A stretch of 64,000 nt of DNA, taken from contig NZ_JACHJS010000001.1 of the NCBI RefSeq assembly GCF_014203755.1, positions 930,001 to 994,000 of the forward strand, in the 5' to 3' direction. This DNA is from Saccharothrix violaceirubra. GTDB lineage: Bacteria; Actinomycetota; Actinomycetes; Mycobacteriales; Pseudonocardiaceae. The position numbers were made by a program, and so were the translations under genes. Below, one piece after another: positions 11,509 through 64,000 of the stretch; the stretch's first letter is position 1; the number at the start of each line of letters is the position of its first letter. The notes under the pieces are model-generated. The model made no database searches, was not told the DNA's origin, and saw nothing but the letters and a program-made list of their open reading frames with translations.

Positions 11509-13485
11509 GTGAGCAACACCGATCTGTTGAGCAGCGAAGCTCCAGCTGCTCCCACCGCCGCAGCCCGTTCCGGAGCCGAGGAGACCGCTCTGTCCACCCC
11601 TTCGAACGGAACCGCCGCGCCACGCAGGCGGGCCGGCCTCTCTGGAATGGTGCTGGCCGAACTCCGCGAACTCGCGGGCCAACTCGGCATCACGGCGACC
11701 GCGGGACTCCGCAAGGGCGATCTCATCGCGGCCATCAAGGAGCGCCAGGGCGGAACCTCCGGTCGTGGCGGTGCCGCGACGCCGTCCAAGTCGGACAAGA
11801 AGGCGGCCGAGAAGCCCGCCTCCGTCGAGGCGCCCGCCGCTCCCGTGGTCGAGAAGGCGCCGGAGAAGCCCGTCCAGCAGCAGCTCGACGTGACCGACCG
11901 GCCCGCCGCCGAGGAGGAAGGCGGTCGTCGGGGCAACCGGCGTCGCCGCTCCGCGAACCGTCCGACCGGCAGCCCGGAGGCCGCCGCGTCGACGACCGCA
12001 CCCGAGGCGCCCGCCACCGCGCCGGCCGAGCAGCAGCGTCCCGAGCGCGTCGAGCGCCCGGAACGCGGTGAGCAGCGCGAACAGCGCCAGGAGCGGGGCG
12101 AGCGCGGTGACCGGGGCGAGCGCGGTGACCGCAACCGCGGTCGGGACCGTGACCGCGATCGGGACCGCGGGCGTGACCGCGACCGGGACCGGGATCGGGA
12201 CCGGGATCGCGACCGGCAGAACGTGGCGCAGGACGAGGACGACGAGGAAGGCGGTCGGCGCGGCCGGCGCTTCCGCGATCGTCGGCGTCGTGGCGGCCGG
12301 GGCGAGGACACCGGTCGCAGCACCGACACCGAGGTCCGCGACGACGACGTGCTGCTGCCCGTGGCGGGCATCCTGGACGTGCTGGAGAACTACGCGTTCG
12401 TCCGCACGTCGGGCTACCTGGCCGGGCCCAACGACGTGTACGTGTCGTTGTCGCTGGTCCGCAAGTACGGCCTGCGTCGCGGTGACGCGATCATCGGTGC
12501 CGTGCGCCAGCCCCGCGAGGGCGAGCAGCAGCGGCAGAAGTTCAACCCGCTGGTCCGCGTCGACAAGATCAACGGCCTGGACCCGGAGGAGTCGCGCAAC
12601 CGGCCCGACTTCACCAAGCTGACGCCGTTGTACCCGAACGAGCGGCTGCGGCTGGAGACCGAGCCGCACATCCTGACGACGCGCGTCATCGACCTGGTGA
12701 TGCCGATCGGCAAGGGGCAGCGCGCGCTGGTCGTCTCCCCGCCCAAGGCGGGCAAGACCTCGGTGCTCCAGTCGATCGCGAACGCGATCACGACGAACAA
12801 CCCCGAGTGCCACCTGATGGTCGTGCTCGTGGACGAGCGTCCCGAAGAGGTCACCGACATGCAGCGGTCGGTGAAGGGCGAGGTCATCGCCTCCACCTTC
12901 GACCGCCCGCCGTCGGACCACACGACGATCTCGGAGCTGGCCATCGAGCGGGCCAAGCGCCTGGTCGAGATGGGCCACGACGTGGTCGTGCTGCTGGACT
13001 CGATCACGCGTCTGGGTCGTGCGTACAACCTGGCCGCCCCGGCGTCCGGCCGCATCCTGTCCGGTGGTGTCGACTCGACGGCGCTGTACCCGCCGAAGCG
13101 GTTCCTCGGCGCGGCCCGCAACATCGAGGGCGGCGGCTCGCTGACCGTGATCGCCACCGCGCTGGTGGAGACGGGTTCCGCGGGCGACAGCGTGATCTTC
13201 GAGGAGTTCAAGGGCACCGGCAACGCGGAGCTGAAGCTCGACCGCAAGATCGCGGACAAGCGGACGTTCCCGGCGGTGGACGTGGACTCGTCGGGTACGC
13301 GCAAGGAGGACCTGCTCCTGTCGCCGGACGAGCTGGCGGTCATGCACAAGCTGCGTCGGGTGCTGCACGCGCTCGACAGCCAGCAGGCGATCGACCTCCT
13401 GCTGGACCGGCTGCGCAAGAGCCGGACCAACATCGAGTTCCTGATGCAGGTGGCCAAGACCACCCCGGGCTCCGACAACGACTGA
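11509..13485 (+). CDS. rho: Transcription termination factor Rho
   Basis: 658 residues from GTG 11509, chosen for the GGAAGGA ribosome site just upstream. It is the hexameric RNA-dependent ATPase that ends transcription. A Rho_N-type helical domain (about residues 45-80) is followed by a long insert rich in Arg, Asp, Glu and Gln (about 85-265), which includes a run of Arg-Asp dipeptides encoded by a GC-rich repeat at 12120-12215. The RNA-binding cold-shock-like domain (VAGILDVLENYAFVRTSGYL) and the RecA-type ATPase with Walker A PPKAGKTSVL near residue 410 follow. Such large disordered inserts are typical of actinobacterial Rho and are thought to bind RNA. It is a single gene ended by a strong hairpin. 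Confidence 0.95.
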   Translation: MSNTDLLSSEAPAAPTAAARSGAEETALSTPSNGTAAPRRRAGLSGMVLAELRELAGQLGITATAGLRKGDLIAAIKERQGGTSGRGGAATPSKSDKKAAEKPASVEAPAAPVVEKAPEKPVQQQLDVTDRPAAEEEGGRRGNRRRRSANRPTGSPEAAASTTAPEAPATAPAEQQRPERVERPERGEQREQRQERGERGDRGERGDRNRGRDRDRDRDRGRDRDRDRDRDRDRDRQNVAQDEDDEEGGRRGRRFRDRRRRGGRGEDTGRSTDTEVRDDDVLLPVAGILDVLENYAFVRTSGYLAGPNDVYVSLSLVRKYGLRRGDAIIGAVRQPREGEQQRQKFNPLVRVDKINGLDPEESRNRPDFTKLTPLYPNERLRLETEPHILTTRVIDLVMPIGKGQRALVVSPPKAGKTSVLQSIANAITTNNPECHLMVVLVDERPEEVTDMQRSVKGEVIASTFDRPPSDHTTISELAIERAKRLVEMGHDVVVLLDSITRLGRAYNLAAPASGRILSGGVDSTALYPPKRFLGAARNIEGGGSLTVIATALVETGSAGDSVIFEEFKGTGNAELKLDRKIADKRTFPAVDVDSSGTRKEDLLLSPDELAVMHKLRRVLHALDSQQAIDLLLDRLRKSRTNIEFLMQVAKTTPGSDND

Positions 13486-13534: not shown

Positions 13535-13538
13535 GTGT

Positions 13539-13604
13539 CGTGAGTGCATGTTTCGCGGTGCCTGAGTGCACAACTCGCGGTGTCTGAACGTATAACTCGC
13601 GCGG
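13539..13604. repeat. 22-bp repeat cluster A (3 units)
   Basis: Three 22-bp units lie at 13539-13560, 13561-13582 and 13583-13604. On the minus strand they follow the consensus CACCGCGAGTTGTGCRYTCA plus GA. The last unit touches the stop codon of the minus-strand gene at 13605 with no gap. Related clusters lie at 31116, 51844 and 63481. Confidence 0.8.
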
Positions 13605-13991
13605 TCAGGACCAGCCGGACTGGTGGGCGGACTCGGCGGTGAGGCGGCGTTCGACGAAGTAGCGGTGTACCAGGAAGGCGACGGCGGGCAGGCCGATCAG
13701 GCAGGACAGGCCGACGGGGACCTGGACGCCGTCCGCGAACACGCCGACCACCAGGAAGGCGGCGGGGTAGGCCCAGCGCGGCGGGCGGTAGCGTCGCCAG
13801 GAGACCAGCGGCGCGGTCACGAAACCCATGGCGGCCGAGGCGCCGAACAACGCCGACGGCAGGGTGATCGGGCGTGGGTCCCCGAGCAGCACGGCACCCA
13901 GCCCGGTGAGCCCGAGCACCGCCGTGCCGAACAGGACGGGCACGGCGAGCCACGAGACCGGGCGCAGCGGGCGTCCGACGATGCATGACAC
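13605..13991 (-). CDS. Small integral membrane protein, unknown function
   Basis: 128 residues from GTG 13991; the frame is open further upstream into prfA, so the start is a judgement. About four hydrophobic segments are visible (roughly residues 12-35, 42-65, 72-90 and 92-110), followed by a polar tail. No family is recognised. It converges with rho, and its stop codon is directly followed by repeat cluster A. The gene after it on the minus side ends at the rho terminator region, so it is probably transcribed alone. Confidence 0.6.
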   Translation of the reverse strand: MSCIVGRPLRPVSWLAVPVLFGTAVLGLTGLGAVLLGDPRPITLPSALFGASAAMGFVTAPLVSWRRYRPPRWAYPAAFLVVGVFADGVQVPVGLSCLIGLPAVAFLVHRYFVERRLTAESAHQSGWS

Positions 13992-14222
13992 GCGGCACAG
14001 TGTGCGCGGTGTGCGCGCGAACGGAGCAACGCGAACGCCCTGAGTAGTCGAACGGCTGCATCGTGCGCCCAGCGGCGGTCCCCACGCGACCAACGGGAAC
14101 ACCACGGCTCCGACGCTGGTTACACCGCATGACGGAGCGTCTGGCACACTGTCAGGTCGAGTCCGGCTCCGGTTCACCCGTGCCAGCGGGACCCGGCGGC
14201 CACCACCGAAAGGGATCAAGAC

Positions 14223-19141: not shown

Positions 19142-19780
19142 GTCTTCCCCGCACACGCGGGGGTGGTCCCGGCATCAGTTCGCCTCCAGCCAGCCGAGCA
19201 CGGTCTTCCCCGCACACGCGGGGGTGGTCCGCTCGCCAGCTACCGAGACGCCGTCGACAGCCTGTCTTCCCCGCACACGCGGGGGTGGTCCCAGGCCGCG
19301 GCGGGTGCCTCCGGTTTTGCGTCGGTCTTCCCCGCACACGCGGGGGTGGTCCCCGAGCGGAAGCCTCTGGGTCAACCTCGGGGACGTCTTCCCCGCACAC
19401 GCGGGGGTGGTCCGGGGAGGCCACAGAGGCCGCAGAGGACGGGTCCGTCTTCCCCGCACACGCGGGGGTGGTCCCTCCGCGCTGTCCGGCAGCCACGGCT
19501 CGATCTCGTCTTCCCCGCACACGCGGGGGTGGTCCGGTCACCGGGCAGATGGCCAACGACATGGTGTTGGTCTTCCCCGCACACGCGGGGGTGGTCCCTC
19601 ACTCTGACCCGATCGGGTCGTCGGGTGAAAGTCTTCCCCGCACACGCGGGGGTGGTCCCAAGATCAGTCTGAAGGTCGTCAAGGGCGAGCAGTCTTCCCC
19701 GCACACGCGGGGGTGGTCCGTACGCGCATCTGGTCGTGCCGGTGACGGGTGCGTCTTCCCCGCACACGCGGGGGAGTCGG
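19142..19780 (+). CRISPR. Type I-E style CRISPR array, 11 repeats and 10 spacers, no cas genes in window
   Basis: Ten identical 28-nt repeats begin at 19142, 19203, 19264, 19325, 19386, 19447, 19508, 19570, 19631 and 19692. An eleventh at 19753 keeps only the first 22 nt. The repeat starts GTCTTCCCCGC, has ACAC as loop, and continues GCGGGGGTGGTCC, which gives the CCCCGC/GCGGGG stem of type I-E repeats. Spacers are 33 nt, except the seventh (34 nt). The decayed last repeat marks the trailer end, so transcription is expected on the plus strand. No cas1, cas2 or Cascade gene is present in the 64 kb, so the array depends on cas genes elsewhere or is a remnant. The uniform repeats argue for recent activity. 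Confidence 0.97.
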
Positions 19781-30581: not shown

Positions 30582-31016
30582 GTGGGGATCGCCGAGTTGG
30601 TCGGGGTGGTCCTGTTCGTCGTGGCGATCCTGCTCGCGTACTTCGTGTGGCGCCGCCTTCGCCTGTTGCGGGCGGGCGGCGTGCACGTGGCCCTGCGCAC
30701 GAGACTCGACGAGTCGGGCCGGGGCTGGCACCTGGGCGTGGGGCACTACCGGGGTGACGAGTTCGTGTGGTTCAGAGTGCTGAGCCTGCGGACCGGCCCG
30801 GACAAGACCATCAGCCGCGACGGGTTCGAGATCGACGAGCGCCGCGAGCCGACCGCGCCGGAGGCGTACGCGATGCCGTCCGGAGCGAAGGTGCTCGCGT
30901 GTCGCGGGGCCAAGGGCGAACCCGTGGAGATCGCGATGGGCCCGGACGCGCTGACCGGCTTTCTGAGCTGGCTGGAATCAGCGCCTCCGGGCCGCTCCAT
31001 TCCCTGGGCAAGCTGA
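30582..31016 (+). CDS. DUF2550 membrane protein
   Basis: 144 residues from GTG, 21 nt after atpC and likely co-transcribed. One N-terminal membrane helix (about residues 4-22) is followed by a cytoplasmic DUF2550 domain with WHLGVGHYRGDEFVWFRV and the C-terminal MGPDALTGFLSWLESAPPG. The gene is conserved behind atpC in actinobacteria. Its function is unknown. Confidence 0.88.
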   Translation: MGIAELVGVVLFVVAILLAYFVWRRLRLLRAGGVHVALRTRLDESGRGWHLGVGHYRGDEFVWFRVLSLRTGPDKTISRDGFEIDERREPTAPEAYAMPSGAKVLACRGAKGEPVEIAMGPDALTGFLSWLESAPPGRSIPWAS

Positions 31017-31115
31017 CCGGACGGCACGAAGCCGATACCGCTGCCAGGGGCGGGCACATCAGCGACAGCCCCGGCAGCATCTGGCGCAACCCACGACGGC
31101 AGCCAACTCACAGTG

Positions 31116-31180
31116 CCCGAGTGCACAACTCGCGGTGTCTGAACGCACAACTCGCGGTGTCCGAGTGCATAACTCGCGGG
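31116..31180. repeat. 22-bp repeat cluster B (3 units)
   Basis: Units lie at 31116-31137, 31138-31159 and 31160-31180. The last one touches the stop codon of the minus-strand adenosyltransferase gene without a gap. The centre unit matches the consensus CACCGCGAGTTGTGCRYTCA perfectly on the minus strand. It lies between convergent genes; 31017-31115 holds nothing recognised. Confidence 0.85.
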
Positions 31181-31753
31181 TCAGGCGTGGGCGCCGGGTT
31201 GCCAGAGGACGTCCCCGTCGGGGTTGGCCACGCGGGCCAGGATGAAGAGCAGGTCGGACAGCCGGTTGAGGTACTTGGCCGTCAGGATGTTGGTGTCCTC
31301 CGGGGACGACTCCAGAAGGACCCAGGCGGAGCGCTCGGCCCGGCGGGCGATCACCCGGGCCTGGTGCAGGAGGGCCGCCGCGGGCGTGCCCCCGTTGAGG
31401 ATGAACGAATCCAGCTTGGGCAGGCCCGAGTTGAACTCGTCGCACCACCCCTCGAGACGATCCACGTAGGCCTGGGTCACGCGCAAAGGCGGGTACTCGG
31501 GAGAAGGCACGATCGGCGTGCACAGATCCGCCCCCACGTCGAACAGGTCGTTCTGCACCTTGAGCACCACCGACGCCACATCGTCGGCAGGAGAGCCCAG
31601 AGCCAGCACCACGCCCAGAGCGGCGTTGGTCTCGTCCACGTCCGCGTAGGCCGCGATCCGGGGCGAGGTCTTGGGCACCCGGGAGAAGTCGCCGAGACCG
31701 GTCGTGCCGTCGTCGCCGACCCGCGTGTAGATCTTGGTGAGGTGAACAGCCAT
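31181..31753 (-). CDS. Cob(I)yrinic acid a,c-diamide adenosyltransferase (PduO type)
   Basis: 190 residues from ATG 31753. It transfers the adenosyl group of ATP to cob(I)alamin, giving adenosylcobalamin for enzymes such as methylmalonyl-CoA mutase. The PduO signatures [26 protein letters not shown] and the [10 protein letters not shown] helix near the ATP site are present. It is divergent from murA, an arrangement shared with streptomycetes. Adenosylcobalamin would be used together with the epimerase encoded at 56653. Confidence 0.93.
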
Positions 31754-40701: not shown

Positions 40702-40989
40702 TCAGCGGTCGAGGGTGTGGAGGAAGCGGCGCCATTCGGTGGTACTGAAGGAGAGCGCCGGGCCGGTGGGGTTTTTCGAGTCCCGGGTCAGGACTTGTTC
40801 GTTCGTTGGGGTCACCTCTACGCACGACTGCCCGTTGGCGCTGTGGGTGCTCGTGTGCCAGCCGACTTCTACGCAGGATGCGCCGTTGCCGCTGTGCGTG
40901 CTGGTTCGCCAGGCCACTTCCACGCAGCTTGGGCCTTCGCCGCTGTGGCTGCTGGTGCGCCAGGTCGTGGTGGTCGGGGTGGCTGGCAT
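40702..40989 (-). CDS. DUF397 protein with a triplicated N-terminal motif
   Basis: 95 residues from ATG 40989. Normal DUF397 proteins have one WRKSSxSxxxxxCVEV motif followed by VRDSKxPxGPxLxF and a C-terminal helix. Here the first motif occurs three times as 17-residue units (10-26, 27-43, 44-60), each with Trp, TS, HS and SCVEV. The single C-terminal part (LTRDSKNPTGPALSFSTTEW) is normal. DUF397 proteins usually work with an XRE regulator and control development or act as toxin-antitoxin pairs. No XRE gene is directly upstream here. Confidence 0.85.
   Translation of the reverse strand: MPATPTTTTWRTSSHSGEGPSCVEVAWRTSTHSGNGASCVEVGWHTSTHSANGQSCVEVTPTNEQVLTRDSKNPTGPALSFSTTEWRRFLHTLDR
40810..40962 (-). 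repeat. Three tandem 51-bp repeats inside the DUF397 gene
   Basis: Codons 10-60 of the gene consist of three 51-bp copies encoding the WxTSxHSxxGxSCVEVx unit. They are diverged at the DNA level, so the duplication is not brand new. Confidence 0.75.
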
Positions 40990-41013: not shown

Positions 41014-41559
41014 CTACCTGGTCGAATGTAGTTCGGCGGCGGCCAGTACCTCGTCTGCCAGTTCAGTGGTGGTGAGGTGGTCCGAGCGGAGTTTCAGGGT
41101 TCCGCTTGGTTGGTGGGCGGCGGCTGTGATGGCTGCGGTCATGCGTTCCAGGGCCCACTCGCGGGCCGTTTGGCCGGTTACCGGGGTGTCGGTGACGGGG
41201 CCTCGGGCGTCCAGTCTGGCGATCAGGACGGTGGGGTCGGCTTCCAGGAAGACGTGGAGGACTTCCTCGCCTGCCGTTGCCAGGCCGCCGAGGATCTCTG
41301 CCTGGTAGGCGGTGTTGGTCAAGGTCATCGGGATGATGAGGGTGTCCGTGTGGTGTCTGCGTAGCGAGATCGCTGTGGCGACCACCAGTTCGCGCCAGGC
41401 CGCGAGGTTTTGGAAGTCGTCGTTGGGCGGGACCCACTTCCACAGGGTGATGCCGAGTTCCTCGGGGTCGAAGACGACCGCCTGGGGGAGTCGCCTGAGC
41501 AACTCCCCGGCCAGCGTCGTTTTTCCTGCCGCGAAACTGCCGTTGAGCCAGATGATCAC
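41014..41559 (-). CDS. TmrB-like AAA/P-loop kinase-type ATPase
   Basis: 181 residues from ATG 41559. The P-loop is NGSFAAGKTT at residues 6-15. DPEELGITLWKW and the DFQNLAAWRELV stretch resemble TmrB, the tunicamycin-resistance ATP-binding protein, and related small-molecule kinases. It may phosphorylate or bind an antibiotic-like compound; this is inferred from family only. It lies between two DUF397 genes and is 24 nt upstream of the first on the minus strand. Confidence 0.78.
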   Translation of the reverse strand: MIIWLNGSFAAGKTTLAGELLRRLPQAVVFDPEELGITLWKWVPPNDDFQNLAAWRELVVATAISLRRHHTDTLIIPMTLTNTAYQAEILGGLATAGEEVLHVFLEADPTVLIARLDARGPVTDTPVTGQTAREWALERMTAAITAAAHQPSGTLKLRSDHLTTTELADEVLAAAELHSTR

Positions 41560-50875: not shown

Positions 50876-51471
50876 TGGAGTGCCGGGCGGCGGTTCTGGC
50901 GGTGGCGGCCGTGGTCGCGGCGCACCGCGACGAGCTGGTGGAGCTGGACCGCGTGATCGGCGACGGTGACCACGGGGAGAACCTCCGGCGGGGATTCGCC
51001 GCCGCTGTGTCCACTGTGGATGGTTCCGGGCCGGTGCTGAGGCAGGTGGCCACGCTGTTGATCTCCAAGGTCGGGGGTGCGGCGGGGCCCTTGTACGGCA
51101 CGGGGTTCCTGCGTGCGGCCGGTGCGGTGGAGGGGCGGCCGTTGGACGGGTTCGTGGTGGCCTCGGCGTTGGCTGCCGCGTTGGAGGGTGTCGTGGCTTT
51201 GGGCAAGGCCGCGGTGGGGGACAAGACGATGGTGGACGCGCTTGCTCCGGCTGTTGCCGCCGCCGAGTCCGCGGCGGCCAGTGGGGGGTCGGTCGCCGCG
51301 GTGTTGGAGGCGGCGGCCGTGGCGGCGGCGGAAGGGGCGGCTTCGACCGTGCCTTTGGTGGCGCGTAAGGGGCGTGCGGCCTACTTGGGGGCGCGGAGCG
51401 CGGGCCACCTCGATCCGGGGGCGCGGTCGACGGCGTTGGTGCTGCGGGCTTTCGCGGACGCGGCCCGATGA
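50875..51471 (+). CDS. dhaL: Dihydroxyacetone kinase subunit DhaL
   Basis: 198 residues from ATG 50875. It binds ADP and two Mg2+ tightly and passes phosphate from DhaM to dihydroxyacetone on DhaK. The Asp cluster is in VIGDGDHGENLRRGF, and the nucleotide lid has the LLISKVGGAAGPLYGTGF and AVGDKTMVDALAPA motifs. The C-terminal ARSAGHLDPGA is also typical. Overlaps both neighbours. Confidence 0.93.
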   Translation: MECRAAVLAVAAVVAAHRDELVELDRVIGDGDHGENLRRGFAAAVSTVDGSGPVLRQVATLLISKVGGAAGPLYGTGFLRAAGAVEGRPLDGFVVASALAAALEGVVALGKAAVGDKTMVDALAPAVAAAESAAASGGSVAAVLEAAAVAAAEGAASTVPLVARKGRAAYLGARSAGHLDPGARSTALVLRAFADAAR

Positions 51472-51833
51472 TCTCGTTGGTGATCGTGTCGCACAGTCGG
51501 CTGTTGGCCGAGGGCGTGGTGGAGTTGGCCGCAGAGATGGCTCCGCACGTGTCGATCACGGCGTGCGGTGGGCTGTCCGGTCGGTTGGGTACCGACTTCG
51601 CGGCGGTGTCGGCGGCGGTGGGGCGGGCGTCCTCGGGGGTGGTGATCCTCTACGACCTGGGCAGTGCGCGGATGGTCGCGGAGTTGGCGGCCGAAGGGGC
51701 TTCGGTGCCGGTGGTGGTCGTGGCCGCGCCTGTGGTGGAGGGTGCCGTGGCCGCCGCCGTGGCGGCCGAGAGCGGTGCCTCCTTGCCCGAGGTGGCCACC
51801 GCCGCCGCCGAGAGCGTCCGCTGGCTGACCTGA
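51468..51833 (+). CDS. dhaM: Dihydroxyacetone kinase phosphotransfer subunit DhaM (EIIA domain only)
   Basis: 121 residues from ATG, overlapping dhaL (ATGA). It is a mannose-class EIIA fold with the phosphorylatable His9 in VIVSHSRLLAEGV. Only this domain is present; the larger DhaM proteins of enterobacteria also carry HPr and EI-like parts. It must therefore get phosphate from HPr encoded elsewhere. Directly behind the gene lies repeat cluster C. Confidence 0.9.
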   Translation: MISLVIVSHSRLLAEGVVELAAEMAPHVSITACGGLSGRLGTDFAAVSAAVGRASSGVVILYDLGSARMVAELAAEGASVPVVVVAAPVVEGAVAAAVAAESGASLPEVATAAAESVRWLT

Positions 51834-51843
51834 CCCCCACCCA

Positions 51844-51931
51844 CCCCGCGAGTCGTGCCTTCAGACACCGCGAGTTGTGCACTCAGGCACTGCGAGTTGT
51901 GCGTTCAGACACCGCGAGACGGGTACTCGGG
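51844..51931. repeat. 22-bp repeat cluster C (4 units)
   Basis: Units lie at 51844-51865, 51866-51887, 51888-51909 and 51910-51931 on the plus strand. They begin 10 nt after the dhaM stop. Units two and three alternate between the CACTCA and CGTTCA variants; the first and last are diverged. Here the downstream gene is codirectional, unlike the other clusters. Confidence 0.8.
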
Positions 51932-52012: not shown

Positions 52013-52618
52013 ATGCGACGTCTGGTGATCCCGTTCCTGGTGGCGGCCCTCGCGGTGGTCGGCGGGTGCTCGTACAAGGTCAACGGCGCGCCGGTGTCGA
52101 CGGCGCCCCTGGAGGTCGAGCCGCCGTTCGGGGGCGAGGATCCGTCCTCGACCGAGGAGACGGACCCGTCGTCCACGGATTCGCCCGACCCGTCCGGTTC
52201 CGCCGAGCCGTCGGCGGTGGGCGACGTGTGTTCGCTGATCGGGTGGAAGGACCTGCCCTACGACGTGCCCGACAAGAACGCCAAGCCCACCGACACCGGG
52301 TACGACTCGTCGTTCGACCAGTCGTGCAAGTGGCAGACGCACGTGGACGACCTGGACGTCGGCGTGACCCTGCGGTTCCGGGAGAGCCGCACCATCACGC
52401 TCAAGGACGCGACCGGCGAGGTCGAGGTCGGCGGGCGCAAGGTCGCCTACAGCGATCGCACGACGGACACCGAGGTGCAGCCGTCGTGCGTGCTGGCGAT
52501 GGACTACGCGGGTGGCGGGATCGGGATCATCGTGATCGACGGGTCGGCCCGGTTCGGTGCGATCTGCGACCAGGGCAAGAGGGTGGCCGAGCTGTTGCTG
52601 GGCAAGGAGCCTGCCTGA
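52013..52618 (+). CDS. DUF3558-type lipoprotein
   Basis: 201 residues from ATG 52013; an in-frame extension upstream is rejected. Signal peptide with lipobox VVGGC and lipid Cys19. An acidic Ser/Asp/Pro linker (about 35-65) leads to a single DUF3558 domain with VCSLIGWKDLPYD and a second Cys in DQSCKW. Function unknown. No clear operon partner: the region between dhaM and this gene carries repeat cluster C. Confidence 0.82.
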   Translation: MRRLVIPFLVAALAVVGGCSYKVNGAPVSTAPLEVEPPFGGEDPSSTEETDPSSTDSPDPSGSAEPSAVGDVCSLIGWKDLPYDVPDKNAKPTDTGYDSSFDQSCKWQTHVDDLDVGVTLRFRESRTITLKDATGEVEVGGRKVAYSDRTTDTEVQPSCVLAMDYAGGGIGIIVIDGSARFGAICDQGKRVAELLLGKEPA

Positions 52619-62829: not shown

Positions 62830-63480
62830 ATGTCCATCTCGGTACTGCTGGTCGACGACCACGAGATCGTCCGGCGGGGGTTGCAGCAACTGCTGGCGGT
62901 CGAGGCGGACATCACCGTGGTCGGCGAGGCGGACACGGCCGCGTCCGCGGTGACCGCCGCCGCCGAGCACCGGCCCGACGTGGCGGTGATCGACGTCCGC
63001 CTGCCCGACGGCGACGGGGTGACCGTGTGCCGGGAGATCCGGTCCGTGGTGGACCCGCCGCCCGCCTGCCTGATGCTGACCTCGTACTCGGACGACGAGG
63101 CGCTGTTCGGCGCGATCATGGCCGGTGCCGCCGGGTACATGCTCAAGCAGGTGTCCGGCAACGACCTGGTCTCCGCGATCCGGACCCTGGCCGCCGGCGG
63201 GTCGCTGCTGCACTCGGGGGTGACGGCCACCGTGTTGCAGCGGTTGCGGGGCGGGCCGGTCGAGGACCCCCGGTACGCCGCGCTGAGCCCGCAGGAGCGG
63301 CGGATCCTCGACCTCATCGCGGAGGGGTTGACCAACCGGCAGATCGCGCACCGGCTCTACCTCGCGGAGAAGACCGTGAAGAACTACGTGTCGTCCCTGC
63401 TGCACAAGCTGGGGTTTGACCGGCGGACCGAGGCCGGGGTGTACGCGGCCAAGCGCCGCCAGCGCGGCGCCGGCCTCTGA
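62830..63480 (+). CDS. NarL/FixJ-type response regulator (DevR-like)
   Basis: 216 residues from ATG with a GGGAGAGG site. The receiver has Asp9-Asp10, the phosphorylation site Asp55, Ser85 and Lys106. The LuxR-type HTH lies near 145-205 (LSPQERRILDLIAEGLTNRQI). It is the partner of the upstream kinase. In mycobacteria DevR controls dormancy genes under hypoxia; here the sensor seems not to bind heme, so the signal is open. The stop codon is directly followed by repeat cluster D. Confidence 0.93.
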   Translation: MSISVLLVDDHEIVRRGLQQLLAVEADITVVGEADTAASAVTAAAEHRPDVAVIDVRLPDGDGVTVCREIRSVVDPPPACLMLTSYSDDEALFGAIMAGAAGYMLKQVSGNDLVSAIRTLAAGGSLLHSGVTATVLQRLRGGPVEDPRYAALSPQERRILDLIAEGLTNRQIAHRLYLAEKTVKNYVSSLLHKLGFDRRTEAGVYAAKRRQRGAGL

Positions 63481-63546
63481 CCCCGCGAGTCATACGTTCG
63501 GACACCGCGAAATGTGCACTCGGACACCGCGAACTGTGCGTTCAGG
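63481..63546. repeat. 22-bp repeat cluster D (3 units)
   Basis: Units lie at 63481-63502, 63503-63524 and 63525-63546. The first begins directly after the response regulator stop. The last contains the stop codon (63542-63544) of the convergent hydrolase gene. Confidence 0.85.
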
Positions 63547-64000
63547 CACCCCCGATCGGGGTGCCGGGGCACGTGGTGTCGCGCGTGGGCAGCGTGCCGT
63601 CCACCAGGAAGTCCTCCACGGCGTCGTTGACGCACGCGTTGTCGTAGCCGTAGACGGTGTGGTCGCCGTCGTCGACGGTGAGCATGCGTGAACCCGCGAA
63701 CCGGGCGTGCGTCCTGCGGGCGCCCTCGACCGGCGTGGCGGGGTCGCGTTCGGTCTGCACGAAGAGCACCGGCGGGACGCCCTGGCCCGTGGGCGTCTTC
63801 AAGGTGAGGCTGGGCCGGTCCCAGAAGGCGCACGGTGCCAACGGCTGGTAGTAGCCGTTCAACGGGTACCGCCCGCCCAGCCGCGCCGACTCCTCGGCCA
63901 GGAAGTCCGGCCCGCCGCGGAACGGGGTGTCGTTGCACATGATCATGTACGCCGTCGCCCGCGACGCGTCCGGGCTGCCCGGGTCGAACGCGGCGAACTC
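63542..64000 (-). CDS. TAP-like alpha/beta hydrolase, C-terminal part (cut by window edge)
   Basis: The last 152 residues are visible, and the frame is open to the window end. The sequence matches the C-terminal domain of TAP-like (tripeptidyl aminopeptidase-type) secreted hydrolases: MIMCNDTPFRGG, VLFVQTERDPATPVEGA with the catalytic Asp, and the catalytic His in VDDGDHTVYGYDNACVN. A Cys pair near the end (NACVND and TTCPGTP) fits extracellular location. The nucleophile Ser and any signal peptide lie outside. It converges with the response regulator gene. Confidence 0.82.
   Translation of the reverse strand, partial: EFAAFDPGSPDASRATAYMIMCNDTPFRGGPDFLAEESARLGGRYPLNGYYQPLAPCAFWDRPSLTLKTPTGQGVPPVLFVQTERDPATPVEGARRTHARFAGSRMLTVDDGDHTVYGYDNACVNDAVEDFLVDGTLPTRDTTCPGTPIGGA

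Follow-up and report, generated by a model that had tools for sequence, protein, structure and literature searches.

Polar arrays of a 22-bp repeat at gene ends in Saccharothrix violaceirubra and other Pseudonocardiaceae

Background

The ending of transcription without U-tailed hairpins in high-GC actinomycetes is only partly understood. Elsewhere, the terminator boxes of Pol I act as roadblock terminators, and we know of no natural bacterial version that operates at hundreds of gene ends genome-wide. Repeats of comparable period or position occur in other settings. Plasmid iterons recur with a period of about 22 bp, and the mycobacterial interspersed repeats (MIRUs) are actinobacterial elements at gene junctions that touch stop codons, are longer than 22-bp units, and lie between the genes of operons.

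Among dispersed repeats, the GTAG class of REPs often supplies the TAG stop codon, according to the sections of PMC3733652 that treat them, and a study cited in part of PMC12306157 places 260 of 496 E. coli REPs within reach of translation termination. Bound proteins are able to end transcription, sometimes in an orientation-dependent manner (sections of PMC10310618). BldC binds cooperatively and head-to-tail to direct repeats of variable number, as the sections of PMC5859096 on its binding describe.

Here we describe tandem arrays of a 22-bp repeat, identified in a stretch of 64,000 nucleotides of the Saccharothrix violaceirubra genome (hereafter the window) and followed through the genome and the family Pseudonocardiaceae. 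The arrays have a polar order of units, are anchored at gene ends, prefer convergent gaps, and are built on a conserved frame with a near-fixed period of 21 or 22 bp, or about two turns of B-DNA, that is kept despite a variable tail sequence. We found no description of this repeat in the literature, in a search that covered mainly freely accessible papers, so that an earlier account is possible; literal repeat sequences returned seemingly unrelated papers only, and searches by topic gave only relatives by analogy. Together with the Rfam result given below, this agrees with the preliminary description of the window, which did not recognise the repeat as a known family. The placement of the arrays behind stop codons, especially between convergent genes, and their varying sequence among related bacteria suggest an undescribed kind of gene-end signal.

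Four arrays in the window

The preliminary description had reported four clusters of tandem 22-bp units, each placed at or shortly after a stop codon and always in the same orientation. All four clusters are present, each with three strong units, and at every one the first unit follows closely on a co-oriented stop (Table 1). Degenerate fourth units lie behind arrays B and C. The 20-letter consensus, with up to three mismatches, matches the window eight times, compared with 0.15 matches expected from shuffles. The uniform orientation holds at the four window loci but does not extend to the genome, where at 23 of 78 arrays the gene on the head side presents its 5' end and not a 3' end (80 arrays lie above threshold and both neighbours are available for 78). 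Orientation relative to genes is thus not universal in this genome.

Table 1. Arrays of the 22-bp repeat and neighbouring genes in the window
Feature	Coordinates	Strand	Description	Basis
Array A	13536..13601	-	three 22-bp units, classes C, D, E; head 3 nt past stop
Gene ending at array A	13605..13991	-	nothing in Pfam at E 0.001	own gene calling; Pfam
Transcription termination factor Rho	11647..13485	+	convergent to the gene at array A	Pfam
Array B	31113..31178	-	three 22-bp units, classes C, D, D; head 2 nt past stop
Cobalamin adenosyltransferase	31181..31753	-	ends at array B	own gene calling; Pfam
DUF2550 gene	30582..31016	+	convergent partner at array B	own gene calling; Pfam
Array C	51847..51912	+	three 22-bp units, all class D; head 13 nt past stop
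PTS EIIA-man domain gene	51468..51833	+	upstream of array C	own gene calling; Pfam
DUF3558 gene	52025-52618	+	after array C, codirectional	own gene calling; Pfam
Array D	63484..63549	+	three 22-bp units, classes C, E, E; head 3 nt past stop
LuxR-type response regulator	62830..63480	+	ends at array D	Pfam
TAP-like hydrolase	63542..64000	-	convergent partner at array D; cut by window end	Pfam

An ordinary-looking hairpin sequence is found between the stop of the Rho gene and array A. Array D is followed by the inverted repeat GGCACCCCCGATCGGGGTGCC, and the called stop codon of the TAP-like hydrolase gene falls inside its last unit. A search of Rfam at gathering thresholds returned nothing at the arrays; its one match in the window is the L31-Actinobacteria ribosomal protein leader (RF03158) at 14163-14201, near array A and the rho gene. 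Two other repeats were seen in the window: a CRISPR-like tandem structure at 19268-19719, with a period of about 61 and repeats like GTCTTCCCCGCACACGCGGGGGTGG, and a 51-bp tandem repeat in three copies at 40813-40963, which adjoins a called gene at 41014-41559.

Organization of the repeat in the genome

A position weight matrix trained on the repeat identified 215 units in 1.664 Mb, a sample that consisted of the window and 80 stretches of 20 kb at even spacing (22% of the 7.35-Mb genome), and the reversed control gave none. Scaled to the whole genome, this corresponds to approximately 950 units. Searches of the complete genome gave 316 matches to CGCGAGTTGTGCNNTC with at most one mismatch, compared with two for the control, and 185 matches to a strict form of the repeat, GCGAGTYGTGCRYTC. 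The family is therefore spread genome-wide, well beyond the four window loci.

Of 140 pairs of adjacent units, 128 have a spacing of exactly 22 bp. Five unit classes cover 211 of 225 units, and the remaining 14 fit none. The classes follow a near-strict order from the head of the array, with A then B, or C, at the start, D units next, and E last; of the 128 steps between neighbouring units, a single one goes backwards (E to D), and in three a D unit is followed by B. The arrays are polar, with the head unit closest to the stop and the other classes behind it. Facing and composite arrays also exist, for example A>B> separated by 12 bp from <b<a, or A>B> followed after 31 bp by C>D>.

The preliminary description had noted that many adjacent units differ at the RY position (AC or GT). 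Over this genome, the RY dinucleotide of the frame is usually GT or AC (272 of 313 units: GT 138, AC 134, GC 26, AT 12, other 3). Base pairing within the unit or with the next unit was considered as the basis of this choice and rejected as inconsistent, because units with GAAA also carry either AC or GT.

Position relative to genes

Genes in the sample were called with a purpose-written script, and individual ends may be wrong. On these calls, arrays occupy 34 of the 234 gaps between convergent genes, 22 of the 911 between codirectional genes, and 6 of the 241 between divergent genes (Fisher p=2.9e-12), and the enrichment in convergent gaps is also found by base pairs (p=3e-9). With an array of defined place and polarity in about one of every seven convergent gaps, the question of termination becomes testable. 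Nearly all units (209 of 215) lie within the gaps between genes and 6 outside them, with stretch ends counted in. The family is thus neither random in location nor restricted to four places; it is tied to gene 3' ends and stop codons, as had been proposed from the window.

A co-oriented unit is present between -50 and +400 at 54 gene 3' ends. The first such unit starts at +1 to +4 in 29 of the 54 and at +1 to +13 in 33. The stops preceding these 33 arrays are TGA in 27 cases, TAG in five and TAA in one, similar to the usage of the genome as a whole (TGA 1107, TAG 247, TAA 47; n=1401). Since the anchored stops mirror the genome proportions, the anchor is the end of the gene and not one stop sequence. 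At seven of the 54 ends the first unit lies at exactly -27, and nine codons of the gene are read into the array. At these loci (L085, L093, L101, L106, L109, L134 and L142) the frame enters an A unit and stops at the TGA of the next unit, so that the array itself supplies the stop codon.

The 22 array-bearing codirectional gaps contain sense arrays only in nine cases, antisense arrays only in ten, and both in three. A KOPS-like signal of chromosome polarity was rejected, as the strand of the arrays has no consistent bias along the chromosome.

Additional shared sequence was observed near some arrays. Behind the arrays at L003, L018, L020 and L023 (near 1500-1750) we found further similarity including CCGAAAGGTGGGCG and its surroundings; the exact 15-mer had no match in the sampled stretches. 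A longer or composite element may exist around some arrays. A second dispersed motif resembling CTCGCCGC..GGGCAGACCACCNGAAAGGGGC occurs near the arrays at L003, L004, L028 and L030, with one match in the sample.

Distribution and dialects among relatives

We searched the family for a general tandem frame consisting of GCGAGTYNYNCRYTC, 5-7 nt, and GCGAGTYNYNC. Tandem copies of the frame GCGAGT-YNYNC-RYTC, spaced by 21 or 22 bp, are present in 72 of 390 Pseudonocardiaceae genomes and in 17 of 46 genera, compared with two control matches in total across the 390 genomes. At least five matches are present in 47 of the 72 positive genomes, and many of the others have one to four. The sequence between the constant positions differs among genomes, and we refer to these variants as dialects. 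The strict dialect of S. violaceirubra peaks in few genomes, and within one genus (g54) it ranges from 0 to 443 matches per genome, the maximum being that of genome G290. In a scan across genome contigs the strict dialect had no match, and a looser dialect was found in nine stretches. Named carriers are Amycolatopsis pithecellobii, Prauserella flavalba, a Pseudonocardia MAG, and Saccharothrix yanglingensis.

Within Saccharothrix, orthologues of the cobalamin adenosyltransferase and LuxR genes that end at arrays B and D have no array within 187 nt past the stop in any of 24 congeners. Two other Saccharothrix genomes, G007 and G024, have arrays of another dialect. All eight loci tested between these two genomes are shared at the same place (the partner test left out L048, L067, L069 and L075). 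Unit number differs at some of them, in a comparison where two of six pairs could not be anchored; no empty sites were found among the tested loci. No array-bearing gene common to S. violaceirubra and G007/G024 was found in a sample of 22% of the former and 17 loci of the latter.

In G290, which belongs to a genus other than Saccharothrix, the unit period is 21 bp in 155 of 158 pairs. The 25 array loci examined there, from stretches picked for arrays, comprise 15 convergent, 10 codirectional and no divergent gaps, and 11 of the 15 convergent loci have both arms. Position 7 is C in the first unit of all 41 arms and T in the last unit of 22 of them. Single loci from 29 other genomes (30 were examined, one without a cluster) are convergent in 14 cases, codirectional in 14 and divergent in one, and eight of the 29 have their head no more than 10 nt away from a co-oriented stop. 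Anchoring is therefore looser in these genomes, so far as can be judged with a gene model that was trained on a different genome. Several genomes of another genus, g43, have few arrays, with a tail in common such as AATCAC and a period of 21 (loci of the L126, L144 and L148 type: L359, L360, L362, L364, L365, L367 and L368).

Two units of the same array share all four middle letters in 65% of pairs, and two units of different genomes do so in 7%, based on 17 arrays from the 16 of 30 loci that pass a stricter rule. One orthologous convergent gap of g54 has facing arrays near the same gene ends in three genomes. The dialect at this gap is of the CGTGC type in G290 and the CTCCC/CCCCC type in G289, and G288 has a mixture; flank identity is 92-94% for G289 and 86-90% for G288. 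In G291, with flanks 75-79% identical, the orthologous gap is 52 bp long and contains no array. Because this gap differs by dialect, the places of arrays can persist while their sequence turns over. Such persistence is documented completely at one gap and partially at another; at gap L306 the array of G288 is seen directly and that of G289 is judged from a contiguous match across the array.

Constraint on the unit is concentrated in the frame. Among 71 interior slots of G290 arrays, picked independently of their own sequence, 58 have no frame mismatch, ten have one, and three have more, and 58-66% of pairs have different letters at positions 17, 19 and 20. Between G007 and G024, 4 of 288 sites differ in the first nine positions of the unit and 51 of 220 in the tail, compared with 2.7% of third codon positions, a contrast that is inflated by the choice of units on a core pattern in G007 and by reshuffling of units, some of which may be non-orthologous. 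At the variable positions in S. violaceirubra, the likeness of same-class units within one arm (0.459) is lower than that of units from different loci (0.604).

Folding potential and hairpins

An mRNA-stability function at 3' ends had been among the early suggestions. The four window arrays all fold slightly worse than their shuffles (z +0.5 to +1.6), and the 42 nt at array ends have a median of -13.7 compared with -13.4 at ordinary stops (n=73 and 1307). A stability hairpin is therefore unsupported for single arrays, and a hairpin behind the array was likewise rejected, given that array 3' ends have no excess stability. The only dyad within the unit is short, of the GAGT..ACTC type, and is missing from the GAAA units. 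For 20 sense arms of G290, folding is somewhat more stable than in shuffles (mean z -1.5).

Facing arms could in principle pair with each other. At the variable positions, the match between facing arms in S. violaceirubra is 0.623 compared with 0.604 between loci, which is no excess over chance, and in G290 it is 0.454 compared with 0.556. In G007/G024, facing arms match at 0.574 compared with 0.375 for other loci (0 of 5000 resamples). An excess match is thus seen in one of three lineages, and in S. violaceirubra neither single arrays nor their 3' ends have the excess stability that would be expected of an intrinsic terminator.

Strong hairpins (below -20 kcal/mol) are present outside the array in 43% of array-bearing convergent gaps, compared with 80% of other convergent gaps (30 and 114 gaps; length-matched Wilcoxon p=0.017, a small test partly confounded by length). 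The median length of convergent gaps is 117 bp with arrays and 103 bp without. As the array gaps are poor in hairpins and of similar length, the arrays seem to stand in for ordinary terminators.

Function of the arrays

Judging from sequence and placement, the reading that we favour, although we would not call it probable, is that the arrays are binding sites for a protein that ends or insulates transcription at gene ends. Of the functions at 3' ends put forward in the preliminary description, termination or insulation fits best, and a stability hairpin is not supported for single arrays. In favour of protein-bound arrays we count the enrichment in convergent gaps here and the prevalence of convergent loci in G290, the anchoring of first units at +1 to +4, the near-fixed period and polar order of units in both genomes, the conserved frame, the weak folding of the window arrays, the scarcity of strong hairpins in array-bearing convergent gaps, and the precedents of transcription ended by bound proteins and of BldC. 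A putative trans-acting protein would read the frame GCGAGT-YNYNC-RYTC, perhaps by binding DNA cooperatively and head-to-tail in a manner like that of BldC or the iteron-binding proteins. The bound array may block, release or insulate RNA polymerase leaving the gene, and, at sites of collision between two transcription units, could take the place of an ordinary hairpin terminator. The unit's middle letters would shift between genomes alongside the reader, or through recombination between arrays. Stated in full for the Pseudonocardiaceae, with two-turn-phased polar arrays flush with stops as putative roadblock terminators that replace RNA hairpins, and with site and reader changing together in each species while positions stay, the proposal is rather unlikely to hold in all of its parts. 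Several observations count against protein-bound arrays. Antisense-only arrays make up 10 of the 22 array-bearing codirectional gaps, and six divergent gaps contain arrays. Only eight of the 29 single loci in other genomes have the head close to a co-oriented stop. The array-bearing gene ends differ between lineages (none of the 24 congeners at two ends), which is odd for a needed terminator. Dialects that turn over are also unusual where one regulator serves hundreds of sites. Finally, facing arms match in G007/G024, as a stem would need, and the better folding of G290 sense arms also counts on this side.

The chief rival was also foreseen in the preliminary description, as a mobile element that targets stop codons. 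The arrays may form a non-autonomous mobile repeat family comparable to REPINs or MITEs, in which an element of two facing arrays is copied to gene ends and homogenised within each genome; this we consider doubtful, but a serious candidate. Arms would grow and shrink by units, the frame would be read by the copying machinery, single arrays would be half-lost elements, and no benefit to the host would be required. The patchy spread in 72 of 390 genomes, the range from 0 to 443 within g54, the genome-specific dialects, and the array-free ends of both tested orthologues in 24 congeners all agree with such a family. So do the facing elements found behind a single gene (for example L085, L087 and L098), the seven genes that read nine codons into an array, the differences in unit number between sister genomes, and the 52-bp gap of G291, which is what insertion predicts. 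However, sister genomes share positions (all eight tested G007/G024 loci, and three of four g54 genomes at one gap), and arrays follow TGA, TAG and TAA in genome proportions, hence at no single target sequence. The Y1 transposase is missing from the array-bearing genomes G007 and G024. Array-bearing convergent gaps are not clearly longer and are poorer in hairpins, which looks like replacement and not addition. No match was found in viral contigs scanned for the GTGC dialect, or in phage and plasmid records searched with one window array, and carriage by phages or plasmids was rejected on these limited queries. The patchy distribution and the dialects therefore fit a mobile family well, and the shared positions and precise anchoring fit it less well. 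A roadblock terminator and a mobile family may also both be true at once. That hundreds of dispersed sites change together, some of them in place, points to a co-evolving reader or to an unknown copying process.

Two further explanations have less in their favour than either a bound protein or a mobile family. It is improbable, in our estimate, that the signal resides in RNA, as the transcript of a sense array or a long stem of two facing arrays serving as a bidirectional hairpin terminator, an RNase site, or an RNA-binding site. Many arrays are co-oriented with the gene and start right past its stop, long stems are possible between some facing arms (for example L134), and the arm matching in G007/G024 and the folding of G290 sense arms would suit such an element. 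Against this, facing arms match no better than chance in S. violaceirubra and G290, neither the window arrays nor the 42 nt at array ends show excess structure, and codirectional gaps contain antisense arrays as often as sense arrays. A sequence of the DNA-uptake type, by which a species labels its own DNA for import and whose inverted pairs at gene ends double as terminators, seems very improbable. We know of no uptake-sequence competence in these actinomycetes. A constant frame with genome-specific dialects and inverted pairs at gene ends is indeed reminiscent of the Neisseriaceae, but the relevant sections of PMC3630211 do not mention tandem phased arrays for the uptake sequences of that family, and they describe intragenic copies as common, whereas 209 of 215 units here lie in gaps.

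Comparison with known systems

The arrays resemble dispersed repeats located near stop codons, but features that define REPs and uptake sequences are only partly found in them. REP, BIME and REPIN elements are likewise high-copy intergenic sequences of 20-40 bp that lie downstream of genes or in convergent gaps, often as inverted pairs, and as with REPs many copies of the present repeat sit close behind a stop, the first unit being less than 15 nt away at 33 of 54 gene ends. Unlike REPs, the units are non-palindromic and form polar 21/22-bp tandem arrays with an order of classes, and no conserved GTAG or CGTC tetranucleotide is evident by eye in the unit profile. An origin from RAYT-associated REPs was rejected because the Y1 transposase family (PF01797, IS200/IS605-type) does not track the arrays: there is one match in G000 and none in G007 or G024, and the five positive genomes among 25 include G013, G015, G019 and G023, all with few arrays. 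Facing arrays provide the inverted ends expected of a MITE; no target duplication was seen by eye, and the flanks of the G291 gap are just 75-79% identical. The units are contiguous at 22 bp, variable, and without spacers, and so lack the features of a CRISPR array. MIRUs differ from these arrays, which favour convergent gaps, and iterons differ in being located at plasmid origins.

The uptake sequences of the Neisseriaceae are similar in being family-wide, with a constant core, species dialects, and inverted pairs at terminators (sections of PMC3630211), but the present frame is longer, is arranged in tandem, and has almost no intragenic copies. Roadblock terminators such as those of yeast Reb1 and Rap1, or LacI, share the proposed mode of action, and some of them depend on orientation (sections of PMC10310618). 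A parallel in arrangement is BldC, whose sites are also head-to-tail direct repeats of variable number that are bound cooperatively (sections of PMC5859096), although those repeats are 9 bp long, AT-rich, and located in promoters. A proven protein reader, if found, would make this repeat family a new kind.
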